A DNA stretch of 64,000 nucleotides from Sisyra terminalis (Eukaryota > Arthropoda > Insecta > Neuroptera > Sisyridae), in the NCBI GenBank assembly GCA_958496175.1, contig OY292278.1, forward strand, positions 42,408,001 to 42,472,000. The letters are read 5' to 3'. A program made the translations under genes and the position numbers. The notes beneath the pieces were generated by a model, which did not search any database, was not told the origin of the DNA, and worked only from the letters and a program-made list of their open reading frames with translations. Position 1 is the stretch's first letter, and every line of letters begins with the position of its first letter. Shown here in pieces: positions 9,961 to 63,735 of the stretch.

Positions 9961-11670
9961 TTTTTTCGAAGATGGTTTGAATTGGAAGTTCTTTGGATCT
10001 AAAGTATAAGAATTTGATAAATGTAGAATAAAAGGTATAAACTTATTGAGAACAAGAAAATATATTAATAATACTCGTTCAATATGATTTAAATCTTAAA
10101 AAATCAATAAAATTTTTGAAAGAATTTTCCACCATCTATTTAATCATTTGAAAACTGCAGAATATTCCTCTAGCCTTAAATAAATAACAAAACGCTAAAA
10201 TATGAATTTCGCAACAATTTTCTTTCCTCAAACATACTATCCCGAGTTTAATTAACCTTTGTACTGAAAAAACGCTTCATTTAAATTTTTATTTTAAACA
10301 CAAACTTCATATAAAAAGTGTTTATTTTAACCAGTCAACGTTCAAACCATATAAAAACACTTCCCATTTTTTTCCATGTATTTACATCAAAGAAAAAAAA
10401 ATAGGTAAAATACCACAATTTATGTCAAACCACAAAAATGTTTTAGTCAATATTTTCTCTTTTTGCCTCAATATTTAAACGATATTTTCCCTTCGCATTT
10501 GCGTGAGAACATCTCTTAAATTGCGCCAAATAATCAATGTCATTCACCAATTTAATTTAAACTTACATTTTCGTTAAATTAAATCGTTTGTAATGGTACT
10601 TTCAATTTTAAATCCCGTTTTATTGTAATGAACAGTAAGTTTGCTTAATTATTGTAGATAATTTGGTAAATTCAAATTGATTAGATACACTTTTTGTATG
10701 TGTTAATTATATGCTTAATCTTTACGATGGGAAAACGAAAAAAATAGTGTTGTTTTGTTAAGAATAGGGATGAGAGACAAAATTTAATAATAAGGTAATT
10801 CGTTTCGTTTTTAGTCCTATTGTTGTGGAGGAATAGCCGAAGATGAATTTTATGTTGTTGGCGGTGGTGAAACCGAATTGAGAAAAACATTCCATTGTCA
10901 TTTTATTGACGACATTCACGACCGAAATTGAAATATACGAACGTTCGTAAACTAACGAAATGAAATGGAAAAGAAAAGTTTTCAACGTAAAAATGTGACC
11001 CAAGTGTGTACTACTCTAAAATCTTGTCAATAACAAAACTATAGGAATGTGTCGCACGTAAAATAAGCAATCGCCGCAAAAATTTAACGGAAATCGGTAT
11101 GAAACTTTCAGCTATTGTGGTTTGCCAGGAAATTATTTCTTCAATACATATTTTATTGCAACTAATTTATCATAATCTTCACAGAAGAAATCGAGAATGA
11201 TGAGTAAACTTTATGTCCCATAAAGTGCAACATTTTTGTAAACAGTTTATGTAACAGGTCTTAAACAATTTTGCTTATTTACTTTAAACTAGCATTTTTA
11301 ATTTCAAAATAAAATATTATTTTTATAAATTAATATATTTTAATAATTTTTTTTTTGTTAGCAAAGCTTTAAAGTTGCTATCTTATTTTGATTTTGTATG
11401 AAAAATGATGTCACGTAAATGGCCTTCAATTTTAGCTTCGCAAATATGAGCTTTTCGTTTGGCGTTTTCCATGATATTTCTTAGCATCTGAGGCTGTATG
11501 GATCTAATTTCTTTTTGTATGTTTACTTTTGATTATTTGATAGTTCGAGACTTATTTACATAAACTTGTCCTATAAGATATCCCCAAAAGAAAAAACCTG
11601 GTACTGTCAAATCAAGTGAGCATGGAGGTCATAAAAATCGGAATTTTGAGAAATTATTTGACCTTAAATT
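9961..11670. other. Intergenic, no gene seen
   Basis: This is mostly AT-rich simple sequence. The part at ~10690-11110 is less repetitive and has short opposing open frames without recognisable domains or codon bias. No gene is called. Confidence 0.35.
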
Positions 11671-11744
11671 ATTGCAATTAAAGAAGAAGACAATTCAGGT
11701 TTTTTAAGATCGGTTTTTTTATTTAATATTTTTATTATTCAATT

Positions 11745-11790
11745 AGCTACGTTTCGTTACTTATCGTAACTTCATCAGGCTTCTTGATTC
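11745..11790 (-). ncRNA. Hammerhead ribozyme motif, left arm of family A
   Basis: On the minus strand: CTGATGA, stem II GTTAC/GTAAC closing GATAA, then GAAAC-GTA. Stem I can form between AGC before the core and GCT after the cleavage position. All core positions are intact. Stem III is only the palindrome ACGT with no loop, so pairing between two copies would be needed. Confidence 0.65.
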
Positions 11791-11851
11791 ACAAAAATAA
11801 AATATTTTTAATTTTTTGAAAATATTGAAAATATTTTATTTTTGTGAATTA

Positions 11852-11895
11852 AGAAGCCTGATGAAGTTACGATAAGTAACGAAACGTAGCTAATT
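11852..11895 (+). ncRNA. Hammerhead ribozyme motif, right arm of family A
   Basis: The core CTGATGA is at 11858-11864, stem II is GTTAC/GTAAC, GAAAC is at 11881-11885 and the GTA cleavage triplet at 11886-11888. Stem I pairs AGC with GCT. It is identical in all core positions to the left arm. Confidence 0.65.
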
Positions 11896-12004
11896 GAATA
11901 ATAAAAATATTTATTAAAAAACCGATCTTAAAAAAACCTGAATTGTCTTCTTATTTAAAAAAATAACAGTTGAGATCTGAATTTTATCATCTATTGCAAT
12001 TAAA

Positions 12005-16440: not shown

Positions 16441-16458
16441 ACATACTTCAAAATTGTA

Positions 16459-16649
16459 GAGTTTCAGATCCTCGATGATGATAAATTGATTAAAAATATT
16501 CAGAGGACTAGGATCAAATAATAATCAGTCAAAATTATTTATTACATGCGCGACGTTTCGGCCTGGTTATTGTAGAATTTCGCGCATGTAATAAATAGTT
16601 TTGACTGATTATTATTTGATCCTAGTCCTCTGAATATTTTTACCAATTT
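16459..16649. mobile_element. Foldback hammerhead retroelement, family C, decayed
   Basis: Inverted arms (gatcaaataataatcagtc and its complement) flank a short centre. A 15-16-bp near-perfect direct repeat, ATACTTCAAAAT(T)GTA, borders it (16443-16458 and 16650-16664). The unpaired tail is on the left. The left arm keeps only the 3' half of a hammerhead on the minus strand (GGCCGAAACGTCGCGC, ~16549-16564). The 5' half and the other arm's motif are deleted. Confidence 0.6.
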
Positions 16650-16664
16650 ATACTTCAAAATGTA

Positions 16665-19310: not shown

Positions 19311-19450
19311 TTACATAACTTACCATTAGATTTTAGTTTCAAAATTGCAATAAAAAGTTATCCTGGTTGCTCTCATCCATGGTGTGGTAGATAATTAATA
19401 ATGTTCTTGGGAACTTGGACTCAAATAATAAGACGTAAAATTCTCAAATC

Positions 19451-19497
19451 ATCTCAACGTTTCGTGGGTATTTATTTCCAACTTCTTCAGGAGAACT
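19451..19497 (-). ncRNA. Hammerhead ribozyme motif, left arm of family B
   Basis: Minus strand: CTGAAGA core (position 7 is variable in hammerheads), stem II GTTGG/CCCAC with one mismatch, GAAAC-GTT, and stem I TCTC/GAGA. Confidence 0.5.
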
Positions 19498-19941
19498 AAA
19501 ACATAACAACAACGAATGTTGTTCAAAGCTAAAGGACACAAATAAATTAATTTTCGCTATTCAGTATAAAACTAAGATAACAAAGTTAAAAAATACATAA
19601 AAAGAATAAACCTTACTTTCTGAGGATAATATCCTCGTTGTAAATACTGGCTCATTATACTGGGTCAAAAATAATTTAAATATAATTATAAATACAATAA
19701 ATATAATAATGACCAGCAGTTATTATATTTAACTTAACTTAATCTTGTTTTTTTATATTTGTTTTAATTTTTGACCCGGAATAATGAGCCAGTATTTACA
19801 ACAAGGATGTTAATCTCAAAAAGTTAGGTTTATTCTTTTTATGTATTTTTTAGCACTGTTATCTTAGTTTTATACTGAAAAGCGAAAATTAATTTATTTG
19901 TGTAATTTAGCTTTGAACAACATGCGTTGTTATTATGTTTT

Positions 19942-19990
19942 AGTTCTCCTGAAGAAGTTGGAAATAAATACCAACGAAACGTTGAGATGA
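19942..19990 (+). ncRNA. Hammerhead ribozyme motif, right arm of family B
   Basis: CTGAAGA core, perfect stem II GTTGG/CCAAC, GAAAC-GTT and stem I TCTC/GAGA. GTT is a permitted but slower cleavage triplet. Confidence 0.6.
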
Positions 19991-20058
19991 TTTGAAAATT
20001 TAACGTCTTATTATTTTAGTCCAAGTTCCCAGGAACATTATTAATTATAAAAAGTTAT

Positions 20059-20788: not shown

Positions 20789-20860
20789 ATCACGGTGGAT
20801 TATTATCGAATTTATTATTGAAGATCATTTGACACGTGCAGTACCAAATCAATCATTGCA

Positions 20861-23800
20861 ATGGCAATAAATATCAATAAGTGTTCGCTAGTTTTAGTGG
20901 TCGGGTTTATGTTCATTTCGTATTCGCGGTGTGATACCAATAGCGTTTATAGTTCCGAATGTGGAAACAATTCGGCGGTCACTTGCCAAAGTTTGAAATT
21001 TTTTAAAAAAATTGCTCGACAATTTCTCGAAAATCAATCGAAAGATGTGCTAATCGCAACGGGGGTGCATTTGGTACAGACCGACAACCCTGAAGCCCGC
21101 AGTACCCTCGACCAAAACTCCAGCAATTTGTTTGGAAGCCTCGAAAAATTTCTGCTGAACCACGAAATTCGTATTAAAATGCCAGAAATATTTCCAATTG
21201 AAACCATGAAAAAGTCCTTAAATATCGTTTTTGATGAAATTTCTCAACGATCCTTAGGTATTTACTTACCAAAGATTAGAAAAATGAAAATTTTAAATTT
21301 TAAAATCATTTTTTCATTAGAAGAAACCGGAAGAAAGAAAGATAAAGGAGCTGGGATGTATCTAGCCTTGGCTTTGGCAACAGCCAAGATTTTAGCCACC
21401 ATTGGATTTGGAGCCGTCGGTGCATTGGCCATGAAAGCTTTAATGGTGAGTACCTCAAAAAAAAAAAACATTTTCTTCACGCAAAATAACGCACAATTCT
21501 CGTACATATTTTATAATTAACCTCATTTTTTTGCAACAAAACCATCAATCGTTTAATACACAATATTTTTATCAGAGCAAAAAAGAAATTACATTATTTA
21601 TTTATAGATCTCCAGACAAACGTCTGCTCAATCATCTTCAATAATTATATTTTTGCTAGAGAAAAGATATAAAATAGCAGACAATTCTTTCTTTGCCTCT
21701 CATTATTTATCAAGCACTTTATTGGTGAATCAATAGCTATTACCGATTTATTTTTCGAATCACTTGTAATTTTAAGGTCGGTGGAAAATATTATTAAATT
21801 ATTAATTCAATCATTCACAATGGGTGGAAAGCTTCATGAACTTTGAAAAGGTAATGCAGGGGATGGGATTGTCTAGCCTAATGGTAAGTGGTTAAGGATT
21901 CAATGTTAGTGGAGAAAGGGAATCGCCTTTTGTTTTAGGAGTACAAATTGAAATTGTATTGTTACCATCAATTGCAAATCTAATTCCGATGTTCAATCTA
22001 ACAAATTTATATAGAGTTTTGGTATCGAATATTATTATGACTTATTACGTTACTTAATTCGATCTTGTATTATTAATTTCTTGATTAAAAAGATAAAACT
22101 TACATTTGGGTAAACGAGAAATGTTCACAGAAGATTCATATACGATTCAAGGAAATCAAGTTTTTATGATTATCTTCTGTATTTATTGGAAACAATTGAT
22201 TAAAATCTTCCACCTGTTGGTCGCTTATCACTAAAGATGGGTCTAGGTCATAGGTCAATAACCGTGGCGACTCGTGAAATTCAAGGGGTTATTTTGAATA
22301 AATCTTTCACACTTAAAAAAATCAATTATAAAGAAACTTAGTACAAAATCGGGAGTCCAATTCCAAAGGAAGAAAAAGAAATTAGGGGTTGCACAAAAAT
22401 AGGTTCTTTACTTATCTTTTTTGGTTCTTTGAAACCCATGGTCTAAGTTAATGTTTCTCAAATAAGATTTCGTTCTTTAATGAACATTTTGCCACCAAAG
22501 ATAGGAAACTTTAAATCGGTAAAAATCGTGGTTTCTTTATTAAACCCAAATTTCTACATTAAAAAGGGCTTTACAGTAGTGACCAAACATATAAATTGTT
22601 TACAATTCCAATTATTTAGCTTTCCACTTAAGAGTACAAAAAAAAATTCAAAAATTCTTTACTTCTTATTCCTTTACTGTGCTACCTTTTGACCAAAATT
22701 TTTAATTTACTTAGCTTGAAATTAGATAATTTATATTTAAGGGTGGATCACCGTCAGAACGTAAAAAAAAATGACTTTTTAAAAATGCTGCCATTTTTTT
22801 TAAAGATATTAAAAAACGGTCTTCGGCATGTAAAGGTGAAGTTTTGAACTATTTTTTTTTATTTGAACCGATATGTCCCCCTCCCCCTTTTACAGCGCTT
22901 TGAAAAAGGGTCCTCAAAAATGAGGAGGCAAACGGGAGATAAGTTTTCTCGGGAACCGGAAATTGGATCATGATTTTCCAAAGAATGTAGGTTTTGGTAA
23001 TGCGTCTTCTTGGTACTGAACCTCGAAATTCCGAAAAAAGTTGAAAATTCACAAAATGGCGCGACTTTGAAAAAAAAGTTAAAAGAACGACCTTTTTTTG
23101 GACCTTTTCTCCTCTCCCACTTTGAGGGGGAGAGGTTTGGCCAATTTCAGAGGTTCAGTACCATGAAAACGTGTTGAACTATGAAACTCTCCAGTTTCAA
23201 GTCAATCCGTCGGATAGTTTCTGAGAAATCTTGTCTCCCAGTTTTAAAAAGTTGATTTCGAGAAAAACGCATTTAAAGTTTTTTTAAGATATTTTTTTAT
23301 GTTATTATCAATTTATTCAATTTTTATCAGTGAAAATACATTAGTCAGCTATTCCAATCCCTTTAACACGTTATTCTTGAATGTTATAAGAAGACATTTA
23401 TGGAAAAAAAAAACGATTTTTTTTTCTGACGGTGATCCACCCTTAAATCTATGCCAAATATTTGATGTTAATCTATTTAAATTTTCAATTCAAATTTTAA
23501 ATATCTTAGACTTCTGAAATTGCTTGCATTTTATTGTAGAGATGCATTTTGCGTTGATTTAAATAAGTATTCATCACTAAACCGGTTTTATCGTAATTTC
23601 AATTTGTGGATTTGTAAAATCCGTGCATAGTCTTTGTACAAACAATAACAATCTTGGAATAATGACCTTCTAATTTAAATATTTTTCAATTTTGTGAATT
23701 AAAATGTTTAACAATATGTCTTTTGGCTTAAAATTAAAATATTTACCTAATCAATAATTTTATCTTCACTTATATTTTTCAAGAAATATCTTAAGTCATT

Positions 23801-26800
23801 ATTTTTAAATTCAAATAAATTCAATGAAATATAAAACAAGCTTTGTTAAAAGCAAAAAAAAAATAAACAATAGGTGAAAAAAATAAATCATTTTTCCTTC
23901 TGAAAAACTTAATTTTCCAGAAAGTTTTGATGTATTAATATCTACAGAATTATTCACTTAAAGTGAAATGAACTACAAACCAGTGTATATATCTAAATTC
24001 TGCCGAGAATTTTTTATTTATCTATTAAACAACAAATTATAATATTATTTACATTAATTATACCTAGAACAATGTGTCATTGTTAGATTTGATTGTTTAA
24101 AACCATACCTGAAACTTTGCTTGGCCGATAGTACACAGTTTCCAAACTTGGTGTTTCCTAGCGAAAAAAAAAACCCAACTGAATAGTTTTTAAATTATAA
24201 AACGAATATTTTTTCTTGACTTAATACATACCCTACAATTAGAACCAAAAATGGATCACCAGGTGGCGACATCTACCACAGGAAATGGTGCGGAAAGCTC
24301 TAACCACCGAAAACTGTCCTCCAATCGTTTTCTTGAGCATTTATCAAAATAAATGCGATTAATTATCAAAAAATAGTTCTGAAATCTACCCTGAAATCAT
24401 GGGCAGATAAACTTTCCGAAAACAAACCATGAATATTTCAACACGCCTAGGCCTCGTCTCATAAAGCACAGGTTAATCAAGAATAATTGAAAAACAAAAT
24501 TCGAAAGTTTATTCCGTAAAAAGCGATGGTTCTCAAATTTTCCTGAAACTAACTCAATGGAATTTTCAATCTGCTATATTTTAGAGAACAAAGTGTGAAC
24601 TAAAAAATTTAGTCGTTTATAGGCCAAAATACCAGCGATCCATTATTTTAACCCATTTTGTGCATCAGAAGAAATGAAAATATTTTCAAATAAAATATGT
24701 ATGGTTTTGTGAATTGGTTACTCTTCGAGTAGTTACTCCAATCAGAAGTATAGTTATAAAAAAACCATCAACATTATTTTTTGCATTTTTTTTTTTAAAT
24801 ATATTATATTGATTTCAATAGTTAATTGCACTCGATTAATGCACATTCTTGAAAAATATAGCTAGGAAAATTTTAAGAAAGTTTGGATCAGTAACTAAAT
24901 ACACTTTTGGTTTTGGAAAATTTTTAATTTGTAAACATTTTACGTTTACAATAGTAAAAAATATTAACTATTTTATAGTCAATTAGAAAAGAGATAGACA
25001 CATCAATAATAAATCTTATCTTTTTCTCATTTTACGCCATTACATATCTCTCTTATAAATCAAAATCAGTAGTCCATGTTATATTGAGATTTTCTTAATT
25101 ATGACTCAATTTAAAAGAAAAAACTTTATCACTGAAATCATAATTTTTTAATGTTTCATTCTTTGTAATTTCTATAGTATATCAATGAAATTATTAGGAG
25201 AGATTTCTTTCCATTTTTTAACTAAAAGAACTGACATAATTCGCAATGTGAAGTACTAAATCTATACGATTGTGATCAAAATAATATTTTTTCGCTGACT
25301 TTGAACAGTTATACTGTGTATACAATATATAGAATATATTGCGGGTCAATTTATGTAGTATAATTTAATATAATAGAATAGAAAAATCATACCATTAACA
25401 TAAATTTGAACAGAAGTTCTAACAAAAATGTTTGTGACGTATTGCCCAGATACGTATTTCGATTGCCAAGCAATCATCCTCAGTGGTCATCAAGTAGTTT
25501 GGATCACTCTGTAACTGCTTTGTGATGATTCTCACTTTTTGGCACTTTTCGGGATGCTTACGAAGGATTCGGTAAAAATAAAGAAATTTGGGAACACCCC
25601 CCCCCCCCCTCCATAACCACATTGCAAAAAGAGGAAGGCACGACTTATAAATTGAGGTCAATCCGTGATTATTTTGTGAATCATCACAAAGCAGTTACGG
25701 AGTGATCCAAACTACTTGATGACCACTGAGGAAGATTGCTTGGCAATCGAAATACGTATCTGGGCAATACGTCACGAATATTTTTGGTTGAACTTCTGTT
25801 CAAATTTATGTTTATGGTATGATTTTTCTATTCTATTATATTAAATTATACTACATAAATTGGACCGCAATATATTCTATATATTGTATACACACTATAC
25901 GATTGTGACTTAAATTTTAATAACAAATTTTTGATTCATTATGATCGAAGTCATACTGAAGTATTTTATTAAAAAATATGCATTTGAACAAAAAGATTTT
26001 ATTATTTTTAACCGATCTTTGATTGAATTGAATTGAATCTAATCGATAATTAAGAAATGTATGTGTCCAAAAATCGGTCCAAATCCATTTCTGCATCTTT
26101 TTATGATTCCATCTCGTTTCAAAGATTGGCGATCCAAATAGATAACGTAGATTAAGAAACAGCCATTAGGAATATATCAATAGATGAACAGCAAAACTAT
26201 ATTCACCTTCCCCCAAGAATTTTGGGGTCAACTGATAGACTTTTTCTTTGGATTTCGCCTTCTATAATCATTTGCAGAAGTTCATACTTTTCTCCTCATA
26301 TTATATGTACCTGTGTCCTTTAAAATGCATTTTTCTTTTCTTGATGGTAAACTTGAGTCATTTAGTATTTCCATGCAGTTATTCAAATCTTAATATACTG
26401 TCCTAATTATTCTGGAATAATAATTATTCAGGAAGCGAATTCTCAAAGGAAGGTTAAGACTGAACAACTTTTAAAAGATCAAAGTAAAAACTTCTTAACT
26501 TAGAACGGAAGGATTTGAAGAAATATTTCTAGACTTAAAAGAAAAAATACTGATCAAGAACTAGCAGGAAATGCAGGGGGGGAGACACTGGCTTCTACGC
26601 ACTTTAAGACAGCCCAGCCATGATTCAAAGTCTAATAAGCTTTCTTAGGCTACCTGGAAATGATCTAAGAAACATTTGCAAAGAACCAATCGATTTTCTG
26701 CTGAGATTTATCTCAGAAACAGAATGGTACCAATTGGAATTAAAAACAAAAATGGGCTGCAATAATCTTTTTAGGATGCTACATACAGGAACTTTTAGAA

Positions 26801-36458: not shown

Positions 36459-36789
36459 ATAATTGATGGTAAGAAGTACTCAAAAGTCATTAGAGGGGTT
36501 CGTCTTTTGTACATCTATGAAGCAGAAAAAATATAAATTTAGCTTAATCTTTAAGCTTTAAGACTCATAACAAAATTAAGAATAAACATTCTATGATTTT
36601 TTTAAGCTTGAGTTAATTTTTTTTCAAACTTCAGGGCCGTAATAAAAAATTTCATACTTAAACCTAATTAGCTCCAAATAATTATTTTCTACTTTCAATA
36701 CTAAATGGCAAAAGTGTTCATGACTTTATTTATTTTTAATAGGGAAGTGGACTTAAAGGATGTAAATCTATACACTAATTATTAATTTA

Positions 36790-36830
36790 GCGTCGTTTTG
36801 GTCTTTTATTTGACCTTCATCAGGTTTCTT
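36790..36830 (-). ncRNA. Hammerhead motif, left arm of family F, inactive
   Basis: Minus strand: CTGATGA and stem II GGTC/GACC are present, but GAAAC has become AAAAC and the following ACGT is ACGA. Essential core bases are lost, so it should not cleave. Confidence 0.5.
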
Positions 36831-36920
36831 AACATGAAGTATACAATATACATCTCAATAACAGCGACATTTTTTTTCTTTTTTCTGTTATTGAGATGTA
36901 TATTATATACTTCATATTAA

Positions 36921-36964
36921 GAAGCCTGATGAAGGTCAAATAAAGGACTGAAACGTCCCTAAAT
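36921..36964 (+). ncRNA. Hammerhead ribozyme motif, right arm of family F
   Basis: CTGATGA, stem II AGGTC/GGACT (weakened), intact GAAAC and GTC are present. Stem I has one mismatch (AGC/CCT) where the other arm keeps GCT. Confidence 0.5.
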
Positions 36965-38045
36965 TAATAATTACTACATGGATTTACATCCTTTAAGTCC
37001 ACTTCCCTACTAAAAATAAATAATATTATCTAAATTATGGACACAACCAATTTTTCAATAATTTTATGACATTTTTGTGATCATTTAAGTCCCTAGTTCT
37101 TTTTAGTAAGGATAATGTTTTTTTTTCTTGATAATCTAAATCTACAACTTGCTACTCGTATGTTACTATCCAAAATATTTAACTTGAATTATAACATATA
37201 ATCTTTCGGCCAAAAAAATATAAACCTCCTTATACCTACTTTCTGAACTCACTTGGTTATAGTACTTCATATTAAGTAAAATCGCAAGTAACATCGAAAT
37301 AATTTGAGGATTTACATCAAACTTATGATATATTTTTTTCACAAAATTTTTATATCATAAAAAATTTTCAATAAAAGGGTCTTAGGAGGGAATCAACTAT
37401 AACTGGAAATGTTAAACATCTTAATAATTTTTGAAGATAATTTATTAATATACATATAATTGATGGTAACAAGTACTCAAAAGTTATTAAGGAGGTCGTT
37501 TTTTGTATATGTAGCAGAAAAAATATAAATTTGTCGCTTAATCTTTAAGCTTTAAGCCTCATAAAAAAGTTAAGAATAAACATTCTATGATTTTCTTAAG
37601 CTTGTGTTAAAATTTTTTTAGACTTCAGGGCCGTAATAAAACATTGCATACTTAAACCTAATTAACTCCAAATAATTATTTTCTACTTTCAATACAAAAT
37701 GGCAAAAAATTTTATGACTTTTTTTGTGATCACTTTAGTTCCTTATTTTTTTTAAGTAATGATAATGATCTTTTTTCTTGATAATCTAGACCTACAGCTA
37801 ACTCATATGTTACTATCAGAAATATTTAACAGTAATGGCTATTATAATATACATAAAAATATAAACCTCCTTATAATTACATTTTGAACTCACTTGGTTA
37901 AAGTACTTCATTTTAAGTAAAATCGCAATTTAAGTAGCATTGAAGTAATTTGAGAATTAATATCAAACTTATGATAAATTTTCTTCGAAATTTTTTTTAT
38001 TAAAAGTCTCACAATAAGGAACCAAATAAAACTAGGCATAGAAAA

Positions 38046-40089: not shown

Positions 40090-40406
40090 TCAAAATAAGA
40101 TTTTTTCGTTAACTTTGAACAGTTATATTGTGTATATAATACATAGAATATATTGCGGTCCAATTTATGTAGTGCAATTTAATAAAATATAAATTTAATA
40201 TAATGTGAATCATCACAAAGCAGTTATGGAGTGATCCAAACTATTTGATAACCACTGAGGAAGCTTGCTTGGCAATCGAAATACGTATCTGGGCAATACG
40301 TCACAAATATTTTTGTTTGAACTTCTGTTCAAATTTATGTTTATGGTATGATTTTTATATATTATTATATTAAATTATTCTACATAAATTGGACAGCAAT
40401 ATATGG
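40090..40406. mobile_element. Family D hammerhead retroelement inserted in the Penelope-like element
   Basis: It shares its left end (tcaaaataagatttttt), right end and hammerhead with the element at 25276-25894, but most of the left arm is missing. TAAACCAG is repeated at both borders (40082-40089 and 40407-40414), so the insertion interrupted the Penelope ORF between the nuclease and the C-terminal parts. Confidence 0.75.
40250..40297 (+). ncRNA. Hammerhead ribozyme motif, family D
   Basis: CTGAGGA core, stem II GCTTGC/GCAATC (one pair weakened), GAAA, palindrome ATACGTAT, cleavage C, and stem I CCA/TGG. Confidence 0.6.
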
Positions 40407-47300: not shown

Positions 47301-47433
47301 TATTATTAGAAAGTTATTAAATTCATCTGTATAATCAGGGTGTGGGGTGAATAATCTATATCTACAATAGCAATACTCTTGTATCTTATGTGCTTTCTCC
47401 TTGTATTAAATGTTAGCTATATGTGGGTATATA

Positions 47434-47592
47434 ACCCAAGGTTTATAAATTACACAGGTCGCCTCATTAGAAAAAAAAATGACGTGATACGAAGAATTTT
47501 GAAATTTGAATCAGTCTGAAGATATGTACGAATTTCTTCTGGATACGTCACGTGGCGCATGAGGCCACCTGTGTATTTTATAAACCTTGGGT
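47434..47592. mobile_element. Palindromic hAT-like MITE, copy 3
   Basis: Ends acccaaggtttataaa and its inverse enclose a near-palindrome of 159 bp. The flanks GTATATAA and TTATATAC agree at 6 of 8 positions. It is the most intact of three copies. Confidence 0.75.
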
Positions 47593-47598
47593 TATATA

Positions 47599-48925
47599 CA
47601 CCCTAAATGTGTTTTGTGTCGTATTTCTAAACAAAACTTATTTAAAGAAACCCATTAATTTATATAGAACAAAAATATATGAAAAAAGGCAAAAGTAAAT
47701 ATATCATCCCTTTTGTTTTCATTAAAAATTGACCTAATATGCATACTTAAAAAAAATCTAAACTAATATGAAAACAAAATGAAGACCAAATGAAAAACAC
47801 GTTTTTTTTTGTACTCCATAATTCTCTTTTTATCTTAATTGACAATGCAAGAACTTGATCTAGGTCCTCTAACTTTATTATTACTTCTGGTCCTAGGGAT
47901 GTCACTGGACCTTTTAAAGCGATGATTTTCTTCTTATCTTCTGGATCCTATGTCGTTGATGCTTGAAGAAATTTGAAGTTTGAGATCATGCGGCATTTCT
48001 TTAGCTTCTTTAGAAGACCATAATTAACAGCTATTAAATTTAATTTTATATCAAAGTTAAAAATAGCTTTGCTAAATGCATAAGCGGTCATACAATTAAC
48101 TAAAAAAATTAATCTAGTCAAAGTAGTATTTAATATAAATGGTCAAACTTGAGCTTGTATTATAGTAAAACCTTAAACATGATTTATACTTTTTTTTTAA
48201 ATACTCAAGTTTTAAGGCACCTATTAAAATTTAACGGTTAGCAAATTTATAGTTATTAAACATCAACTTTTAAATGACTCATAAATATTGATTTGAAATT
48301 AAAAAAGAATTGGCTATAAAAAACAGTAAAAAGAATTAACAAAGTATAATGCGCAATTGAAGTAATTTTCTTTAAAATTCTCAGAAAAAAATTTGCTGTT
48401 TGCATTCATGAAAACATTACTTGAAAATTAATTACCAATTTCTTATCCTCGGCTTTGTTTAATTTCACTCTATTTTATTTCAATTGTAACGCAGACAGGA
48501 GCGAAAGCTTTTAGACGAAAGCTTTTATTCAAACTTTGATTGTTTTCAAAATTCCCTGACAATTAGTTCAACAGAAATTTCATTTTTACAACGCAAATCG
48601 TAACGATGGTAATTGAGTTAGTGGCTTTATTTTTTAATGTAATTATCGAACTTCTCCCGTAATGGAATATACAATTTTTTTCTCCCATTAAAATTCAAAG
48701 AACAAGAGTTTAATAAATTTTATTTGTTTCCAAATATCATATTGGGTTTTGTAGGTTTTCCAATGTTGAAATAATTAAATTTTAATCTCCAAAAAAAAAA
48801 TGTAACCAGATAGCATTTGAATGATTCAGCCTTAATGAAGAAAATTTAAAATATTTTAAGGGTAGAAACAAATGGAGATGTACGATTCGTTTTATCCGAA
48901 ATTTGGATTGATTTTTTTATTCTTA
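47599..48925. other. Intergenic, no gene seen
   Basis: AT-rich filler with no recognised repeat or frame. Confidence 0.35.
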
Positions 48926-61194: not shown

Positions 61195-61335
61195 TCAAAA
61201 TAAGATTTTTTCGCTGACTTTGAACAGTTATACTGTATATACAATATATAAAATATATTGCAGTCCAATTTATGTAGTATAATTTAACATAATAATATAC
61301 AAATTTAATATAATAATATATAAAAATCATTTGTG
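61195..61335. mobile_element. Family D element, short copy without hammerhead
   Basis: Starts tcaaaataagattttttcgc like the 25276 and 40090 elements but ends after 141 bp. TCAATTG borders both sides (61188-61194 and 61336-61342), so the truncated form inserted as such. Confidence 0.65.
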
Positions 61336-61612: not shown

Positions 61613-61879
61613 TTCGAATTTGCTAAAGGATATAAAAATGGGAATCATTTTATATTTCCTTTCTTGATATATTTAATTAAATCCTGCATAATCCAAAACA
61701 CCTTTGTCTCTCAAAAATAGCTATACTCAAATCTTTTTTTCTTCCGGTTCGCATTTCGATTTTTTCTTCCCTACGTGGGTCTTAACGTATTTATAGTTAA
61801 CTGTAAATATTACTCAAAATATAATAATTAAATTGTGGGCAATAAGGACGAAGGTTCTTATGGAATATTATTTATTTTA

Positions 61880-61925
61880 TCGCCAACGTTTCGTCAGTCA
61901 TTCCTGATTTCTTCAGGGCTCAAAA
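61880..61925 (-). ncRNA. Hammerhead ribozyme motif, left arm of family E
   Basis: Minus strand: CTGAAGA, stem II TCAG/CTGA, GAAAC-GTT and perfect stem I GCC/GGC. Confidence 0.55.
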
Positions 61926-62149
61926 TTTTAAAATTACTTCACAAATGTCATCAAAATAAGCTGTAAAATGACCCAACTGGTAGAACAACAGGCCAAGAAA
62001 ACAATTTGGTATTGATAAATAAAAAACTGTTTAAAAAACAATATTGAAAAAACACATCTTATAATGATAATAATCAATCTCAATGTTGTTCTACCAGTTG
62101 GGTCATTTTACAGCTTATTTTTATGGCATTTGTGGAGTAATTTTTAAAT

Positions 62150-62195
62150 TTTGAGCCCAGAAGAAGTCAAGAATGACTGACGAAACGTTGGTGAT
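62150..62195 (+). ncRNA. Hammerhead motif, right arm of family E, inactive
   Basis: Stem II GTCA/TGAC, GAAAC and GTT are present, but CTGAAGA has become CAGAAGA, losing an essential core base. Confidence 0.45.
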
Positions 62196-62872
62196 AAAAT
62201 AAATAATATTCCACTAGAAGCTTCGTCCTTATTGCCCACAATTTAATTATTATATTTAAAAAGACAAGGATTTAAACAACATGGATTACTCAAAATAGAT
62301 TCTTCAAAAATCTTTTACTGGTACGCAGGGATGCCGTTCTGGAATTTTTCAAATAATTTTTTAATTTCCAGAACAATTAAATACATAAAAAAAACAATTC
62401 AAAACATCCAGATAACATTTTTGTTGCAGATCTATGTAATCTAAATTTCTTGATTTACGGATTTTCATTAATTCTAGAGTCGCAAAGATTATTTTATTTA
62501 CAATGCGATGCTAACTAACGATAACTAATAATAAAAGAAATTTGTTCAATCCCTTTTATAAACGATAATTTTTATTTAGTTTGATAACTAATAAATTAAA
62601 AATCTTAAATAAATGATATTTTCGAATTGAAAAAGCGTGTAAGTAAAGTAGCTTGTGGAAAATTAAATTTCATCCCTTCGTTTGCCCCCTCAGGATTGCA
62701 AATATATATAAAAATGGAAACTCAATCAAATTGTAATAAACAGAATTATTTCATTTATTTAAATTGCAACATTTCGTTGGTGTTATTCCAATTGCATTTA
62801 TTCAATTATTCCGGTTGCAATTGAAATAAATGAACTGAATCACTGCTAACTTATTTGGTCTACTACATCCTG

Positions 62873-63132
62873 ATATATGAACCGTTTATTTTGAAAGTGA
62901 GTTAAGTCCATTTCAAGAACAATCCCTATGTGTTATAATTTTTAACCATAGGAACATAAGATACTAAGGAGGAGGAAATAATTGGCGTTTTTTTTGTTAA
63001 CAACTAAAATGAAATCAGTAATTTGTGAAAACAGCGGTTAAATAATTAACATACTTTGTTCTAGTTACAAGAAGAATCACCATATAAATCGTCCTTGAAA
63101 TGGACTTACACCACTTTCAAAATAAACGAGTC
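62873..63132. mobile_element. MITE with ttattttgaaagtgagttaa ends, copy 2
   Basis: Left end tatgaaccgtttattttgaa and right end ttcaaaataaacgagtcata are inverted copies ~260 bp apart. The right half recurs at 63625-63732. Confidence 0.6.
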
Positions 63133-63135
63133 ATA

Positions 63136-63735
63136 TCTTTCTGAAGCCGATGTATCATTCTTATAGCCTTAGGGCCTTAAAACATTTAGATTGGAAACAT
63201 AAATTTTTCACAAAAATCACAAGTGACAATTGCAGAAGAACCATCACTCTAGGCAATAAAATTAATAATTTGTAGAACTTTATAATATTTTACTTATTTG
63301 GATAAAAGAATTGTTATCTTGATTGATTAAATAATCACTTGAATCACTATTTGGCATTTAATTAAATAAAATTAAATAATTTAGTACAAATAAAGTATGA
63401 TGAAGTCAAGCAATGCACTAGCATCTGCTAACTTTTTAGATAATTTTTTTTTTGCCCAAGTTGCTGTAAATATTTTTTTTATATATTTGAAACATTTACG
63501 TATAGCTTAAGAAGCTGATTGTAAAAAAAGGATAATAAAAAAAGCTTTATGAAGTCATTGTTTTGACTTTTGTCATTGGTGAGCAATTGGTGTCCAGTAA
63601 TTCATAAATCATTAATTTGTCAAAACTTAGCAGTTAAATAATTAACATACTTTGTTCTAGTTACAAGAAGAATCACCACATAGACTGTCCTTGAAATGGA
63701 CTTACGCCACTTTCAAAATAAACGAGTCATATTCT
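63136..63735. repeat. Dispersed repeat partner of 9574-9960, then a half MITE
   Basis: 63136-~63500 matches 9574-9960. 63613-63735 repeats the right half of the MITE at 62873-63132, so the dispersed repeat lies between two copies of one MITE half. Confidence 0.55.

Follow-up and report, generated by a model that had tools for sequence, protein, structure and literature searches.

In Penelope, as far as the accessible part of one report goes (PMC3846280), pLTRs occur inverted with a tail on one of them, head-to-head being the most frequent arrangement, and target-site duplications (TSDs) are short (8–10 bp in the described cases), with some copies having none. The elements at the locus described here resemble those given in the same part of that report for Adineta vaga (Pen2a_Av and others), namely head-to-head inverted pLTR pairs with short TSDs, an optional tail, there of 31 bp, on one inverted pLTR, solo pLTRs, and an ORF with reverse transcriptase (RT) and GIY-YIG domains. 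Unlike those elements, which the same pages give as low in copy number, thousands of motif copies are found here, many as short ORF-less pairs. The paper does not contain the word hammerhead. For one Penelope-like element (PLE), both target strands are described as cut and extended, and a hammerhead ribozyme lies at the junction of pLTR and ORF (PMC11167929). Poseidon of Anolis (PAc) is comparable in its minimal hammerhead at the pLTR/ORF junction, its AT-rich targets and its two adjacent RT start sites, which explain the tail, but unlike the elements here PAc forms tandem arrays, and its hammerhead, which needed added protein in order to cut, was dispensable for insertion in vitro (PMC11167929). 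PLE hammerheads are without helix III or its non-conserved nucleotides, and the minimal type I forms (Cervera and de la Pena 2014; Lunse et al. 2017) are abundant, dispersed and may cut as dimers, according to the available portions of PMC7761336 and PMC6155905; with helix III absent or without non-conserved nucleotides, the cores described below are like these. Among the open-licence papers listed, none presents, by its title and abstract opening, inverted pLTR pairs with hammerheads as a class of their own, and the accessible part of PMC12910113 has nothing on them.

The window, i.e. the whole 64,000-nt stretch of Sisyra terminalis DNA analysed here (C5:42408001-42472000), was scanned for inverted repeats and hammerhead motifs, and the genome (376.6 Mb, 11 contigs) was searched for relatives. 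Seven short foldback elements were found in the window, where the original prediction had placed them, with inverted repeats throughout and hammerhead cores in six of the seven (Table 1); shuffled sequences gave none. Six arm pairs, at 11678-11958, 16491-16642, 19391-20048, 25310-25899, 36726-37023 and 61817-62257, are 63–282 nt long and 91–98% complementary, and the element at 40090 has a weak internal arm pair (57 nt, 79%). A short relative had also been predicted; it is the single arm at 61195-61335.

Table 1. Coordinates of the foldback elements in the window and of their parts; the focal element is 25276-25894.
Feature	Position	Strand	Details
Foldback pLTR pair	11683..11991		core on each arm: 11858-11887 (+), 11778-11749 (-); tail at right
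TSD of element 11683	11670-11682 / 11992-12004		13 bp
Foldback pLTR pair	16455..16649		long extension at left; hammerhead 3' half only (GGCCGAAACGTC), minus strand, ~16559-16552
TSD of element 16455	16443-16454 / 16650-16661		12 bp
Foldback pLTR pair	19362..20046		cores 19949-19982 (+), 19490-19457 (-); tail 19362-19390
TSD of element 19362	both flanks		ATAAAAAGTTAT, 12 bp
Focal element, left TSD copy	25262..25275		14 bp; second copy 25895-25908
Focal element, PLE tail	25276..25309	-	34 nt, this end alone; comparison of copies L001-L008
Focal element, left pLTR arm	25310..25534	-	antisense on +; core 25483-25450, H17 at 25449
Focal element, PLE ORF 3'-end remnant	25533..25702	+	ends ..VNHHKAVTE-stop; tblastn with L115 ORF
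Focal element, right pLTR arm	25675..25894	+	sense, no tail; inverted-repeat scan
Focal element, putative hammerhead core	25726..25760	+	CTGAGGA / stem II / GAA / AUACGUAU / C17; predicted cut after 25760
Foldback pLTR pair	36726..37064		core 36926-36956 (+); degenerate core ~36789-36824 (-)
Foldback element, same family as focal element	40090..40403		tail-bearing arm truncated; core 40255-40288
TSD of element 40090	40079 / 40404		10 of 11 bp
Single truncated tail-bearing arm, focal family, no core	61195..61335	-	sequence
Foldback pLTR pair	61822..62284		core 61916-61886 (-); tail at right
TSD of element 61822	both flanks		ATTACTCAAAATA, 13 bp

Cores (CTGANGA..GAAA) are present on both arms of elements 11683, 19362 (with one mismatch in stem II of the left core) and 25276, and on one arm alone of elements 36726, 40090 and 61822, where the partner core is degenerate (36726; 61822, right arm, CAGAAGA at 62158-62188) or the partner arm truncated (40090, whose sense arm starts GTGAATCATCAC..). 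The predicted hammerheads hold for six elements, and as a 3' half for element 16455, with cores on both arms in three only. TSDs lie at the borders of six of the seven elements, and six carry an extension of ~27–36 nt at one end. Comparison of the flanks of element 36726 gave no convincing TSD, which leaves its right end and tail uncertain. The right arm of element 16455 (16552-16582), which is outside the set of inner ends measured below, begins no more than 2 nt from the cut site predicted for its family, which was taken as chance.

Other features of the window were recorded in passing. An ORF at 20822-21520 (+) matches DUF1676, the domain of insect Osiris proteins, with 48.5 bits, which makes an insect host probable. 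An imperfect inverted repeat at 62875-63136 with a further related arm at 63683-63732 (AAGTCCATTTCAAG / CTTGAAATGGACTT) has no hammerhead core by the two motif patterns; a MITE-like 41-nt inverted repeat (95%, 91-nt spacer) lies at 47427-47599, and a 67-nt repeat (87%), with arms 211 nt apart, at 2163-2507.

The pattern CTGANGAA..GAAACGT matched six times in the window and the variant ..GAAATACGTATC twice, each with no match in 100 dinucleotide shuffles, and a looser scan gave the ninth core, on the minus strand at 25483-25450. Counted as exact patterns, one motif has 7,720 copies in the genome (reversed control 0) and the focal-family motif occurs at 2,152 places. A chance origin of the motif is ruled out by the shuffles for the window and by the reversed control for the genome. 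The pattern scan of viral_contigs returned 54 stretches.

For analysis of base pairing, 81 distinct cores from the fetched loci and the window, mostly from contig C1, were read with their flanks after identical contexts had been removed, and were grouped by a simple distance rule into 17 stem-II families, some of which are close variants and not fully independent. The core sequence was the search term and only pairing was free to vary. Across the 17 families, 44 of 51 pairs were kept in stem I (permuted mean 27.5) and 66 of 68 in stem II (permuted mean 42.2), with 0 of 10,000 permutations reaching the observed value in either stem; by this covariation, the two helices have kept their pairing through changes of sequence. 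The CUGANGA, GAA, A15.1-U16.1 and H17 features are present, the core being the search term. Between CUGANGA and stem II there is an extra nucleotide, an A in 80 of the 81 cores and a T in one; a viroid hammerhead tolerates an extra A in the same place. This nucleotide may set the cores apart from the published minimal hammerheads. The palindrome ACGU (AUACGUAU for the focal family) makes up helix III, and one family (GGTCTAATAAAAGACC) has GUGUC following GAAAC, a sequence that can be accommodated only if helix III contains a 2-nt loop. As read from these sequences, the motif agrees with the minimal type I hammerhead, poor in helix III, that has been described in PLEs. With no more than this palindrome for helix III, the putative ribozyme would depend on a dimer or on assistance from protein for cleavage.

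In a search of the window against Rfam, no family, hammerhead included, reached the gathering score, and none of the 22 matches at E<=10 was to a hammerhead family. The microRNA matches in this search, below gathering score, were set aside as reflecting the hairpin shape. In the predicted folds, stems I and II form in the isolated segments 11850-11900 and 19940-19996, are absent from the minimum free energy (MFE) structures of four other isolated arms, and in six dimers tested no convincing double hammerhead was seen in the MFE structure. The full hairpin 11678-11958, at a predicted -177.9 kcal/mol, is by this model far more stable than the isolated ribozyme fold of 11850-11900 (-7.4 kcal/mol), in line with the expectation that folding of the long hairpin would compete with it.

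The elements had been described as having no ORF, which is not quite so for the focal element. Its 140-nt spacer is a 5' extension of the right arm and a coding remnant of ~55 codons; by tblastn, 22 and 33 residues in two frames are 77.3% and 93.9% identical to the C terminus of a PLE ORF. This ORF comes from locus L115 (C1:12715100-12718150), where focal-family pLTRs in opposite orientation bound an open frame of 696 residues with matches to RVT_1 (36.5 bits, above the Pfam cut-off) and GIY-YIG (15.9 bits, below the cut-off of 22.6). The frame runs into a focal-family pLTR and ends within it (..VNHHKAVTE), on the other side lie another frame coding for GIY-YIG (18.3 bits, again below the cut-off) and the oppositely oriented pLTR, and the insertion has a tail at one end and a 13-bp TSD (TTCAAAAGATGAT). 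Positions 1–141 of the focal right arm share 95.7% identity with each of the two L115 pLTRs. Since its spacer is L115 coding sequence, the focal element is a shorter version of L115.

Coding sequence was also found next to arms of two other families. At L114 a GIY-YIG ORF (22.6 bits, at cut-off) is followed downstream on the same strand by a 19362-type arm (93%). At L096 a frame of 151 residues lies between two opposed cores, in arms that match the right arm of element 11683 at 82–83% identity along 182 and 120 nt, the 182-nt match (82%) taking in the tail; this frame has no Pfam match of its own, aligns with P0005, a sequence scoring 26.4 bits for GIY-YIG, and has at least 150 matches in the genome. 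A protein search gave six relatives, one of them named GIY-YIG catalytic domain by its source. Searching the genome with the Pfam GIY-YIG model returned one place only, missing the PLE endonucleases, and RVT_1 gave at least 150 places, counted irrespective of element type. Judged from these matches, RT and GIY-YIG are joined to focal-family termini, and only the endonuclease part to those of the 19362 and 11683 families. The arms of elements 16455, 36726 and 61822 gave no match to L096, L114 or L115, and these families are provisionally assigned to PLEs by architecture and ribozyme only. Further endonuclease-coding PLE fragments stand head-to-head at C1:3778417/3779440, 3832463/3833487, 8025578/8026090 and 10935687/10936316 and at C2:52672354/52672501. 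Positions 6193-6606 of L096, together with L115, represent a CTGATGA subfamily of the focal family, with the same ~40 nt of the pLTR missing from both arms.

A genome search by arm, proposed at the outset, showed that the focal and 19362 arms recur with near-fixed outer ends. The focal left arm gave at least 65 matches (40 of 2,000 candidates scored). In its eight best-scoring matches (L001-L008, L001 being the focal element itself), which are complete in the tail-bearing arm because they score best with that arm, the same tail is present on the left arm in 8/8 and the second arm is without it in 8/8. The left arm reaches nearly the same inner point in all (query 256–259), and the second arm begins at focal position 418, 433, 524 or 543 in four copies; in another three it begins near 400, which is its full-length point, and in the focal element it continues into coding sequence. 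Element 40090 is the mirror case, with a truncated tail arm and a full sense arm. Among 60 listed matches of the 19362 arm (40 of 813 candidates scored), outer ends fall at 277–282 of 282 and inner ends at 1–243. Near-fixed outer and variable inner ends are characteristic of reverse-transcribed insertions and not of a unit moving as DNA.

Flanks were compared for 50 partner alignments against 244 shuffled pairings; 18 of the 50 have identities of 0.62–0.80 and may be chance or overrun, and element 11683 was overrun here, its TSD coming from a separate flank comparison. A TSD score of at least 11 was reached by 17/50 elements and 1/244 shuffled pairings, and a score of at least 10 by 20/50 and 7/244. 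The target duplications measure ~10–15 bp. Among the 20 elements scoring at least 10, 19 have a tail of 23–43 nt on exactly one side, and no tail was seen in the remaining one (L101). The copies thus have short TSDs and are 5'-truncated with a fixed 3' end, so the predicted retroelement nature stands; the motifs belong to the elements, keeping a constant position with respect to the outer borders in each family, and the refuting case named at the outset, in which motifs bear no relation to the borders, was not observed. Cleavage as a cause of arm truncation was considered and rejected, as arm starts do not cluster at the predicted cut site: measured inner ends (67 of 81 cores, those with a partner) range from -254 to +23 around it, the nearest being +4 (L106, minus site). 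In near-perfect palindromes, recognised by their negative spacer, arms truly begin at the centre, likewise not near 0. In the focal family the arm start is nearly fixed, ~85–95 nt upstream of the predicted cut site.

The arms sampled are strictly oriented. A head-to-head partner arm was found for 62 of 77 cores (the 81 minus four with short flanks, the two arms of one element being counted separately, as also in the 81 cores and in the inner-end measurements) and a tail-to-tail partner for 0/77; direct partners were found for 1/77 upstream and 0/77 downstream, compared with 2/77 in the control of random window segments. Among all 81 cores, 14 have no detectable partner arm. Neighbours within 2 kb at the first 100 of the 7,720 motif places were -+ in 22 cases, +- in 2, -- in 1 and ++ in 1; three of the four pairs other than -+ join different families, and in the ++ pair (L094) both members belong to a single family and lie 1.6 kb from each other. 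For the 60 listed matches of the 19362 arm, 22 pairs within 1 kb were -+ and no other orientation occurred, and the first 100 of the 2,152 focal-family places gave -+ 12, +- 1 and ++ 1 within 2 kb. Arms of one element also tend to share variants: N7 of the core agrees between arms in 13/13 focal-family -+ pairs (7 T, 6 G), and mean identity is higher within than between elements in 5/5 families (e.g. 94.7% vs 91.6%), the partner being the closest arm in only 23/42 comparisons.

Taken as a whole, each element is almost certainly a 5'-truncated PLE insertion made up of one RNA 3' region present twice, head-to-head. This region is the pLTR with its minimal hammerhead, followed by the short tail, and there are two opposed ribozymes because there are two inverted copies of one RNA end. 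We infer that the PLE protein would cut both target strands, with reverse transcription starting on each, probably at a pair of neighbouring internal positions on the RNA, some 23–43 nt apart; two such sites, one per strand, would leave a tail on one arm and none on the other. The two truncated cDNAs would then be joined in the middle to give the hairpin, and the ribozyme would here be a passenger of the pLTR. Strict orientation, the one-sided tail and the shared variants suggest that one RNA was copied twice, once per target strand; orientation, TSDs with one-sided tails, and the letters shared by the arms favour two RT starts on the same or a sister RNA.

Self-priming is the rival that fares best, though we consider it unlikely: one cDNA, or an antisense RNA, would fold onto itself at a palindromic stretch close to the 5' end of the pLTR and be copied into the second arm, as has been proposed for Penelope of A. 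vaga in the accessible part of PMC3846280. It would account for the subfamily letters shared by the arms (N7, 13/13) and the higher identity within elements, and it suits the start of the focal family, GTGAATCATCAC, which is partly self-complementary, as well as the three of eight focal-family copies whose second arm starts at the same full-length point. A snap-back, however, should duplicate the tail, which is one-sided in 19 of 20 elements with clear TSDs, and some junctions have long spacers or an arm continuing into the ORF, as in the focal element.

Far less probable is a self-contained, non-autonomous foldback or MITE-like family that moves as a unit, with its paired ribozymes under selection. 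Short copies in the thousands (by exact motif matches, 7,720 and 2,152) and paired arms at most cores tested would be expected of it, but junction positions vary between copies, the one-sided tail makes the terminal repeats unsymmetrical, the same arms bound or follow RT- and endonuclease-coding frames, and the second core is degenerate or missing in three of the six core-bearing window elements; the symmetrical terminal repeats and fixed internal structure of MITEs and foldback DNA transposons were not found. Metazoan retrozymes, i.e. small tandem repeats with type I hammerheads that are copied through RNA circles, would account for a short non-coding repeat with a type I hammerhead, and PLEs are suspected of mobilising them in the available part of PMC7229834, but they are a most improbable explanation here, given direct neighbours at 1/77 upstream and 0/77 downstream with no tandem arrays in the sample, a minimal helix III, inner ends off the cut site, and no tandem direct repeats with a canonical type I hammerhead.

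Returning to the insertion of one RNA end twice, a more detailed version may be put forward tentatively, at somewhat less than even odds: the hairpins would record PLE insertion with the start sites used one per strand, the focal arm start would correspond to the RNA 5' end, and initiation from the leader pLTR would make ORF-less pairs the main product. In vitro, the Anolis element showed two RT start sites (PMC11167929); the same work found no difference in start site between the strands, which speaks against a strict rule of one site per strand.

The original prediction was a correct and sharp observation, and its explanation lies in an element type that was already known. The further proposal, that compact elements with two opposed ribozymes are a distinct non-coding form, did not hold, since these are truncated head-to-head PLE insertions in an arrangement already described for Penelope in the accessible part of PMC3846280. 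A supposed new ribozyme element is thereby removed and placed with the PLEs. The thousands of motif copies are a data set on PLE insertion, in which self-priming may be weighed against priming from both target strands; with the strict orientation and one-sided tail of the sampled copies, these models are testable by counting.
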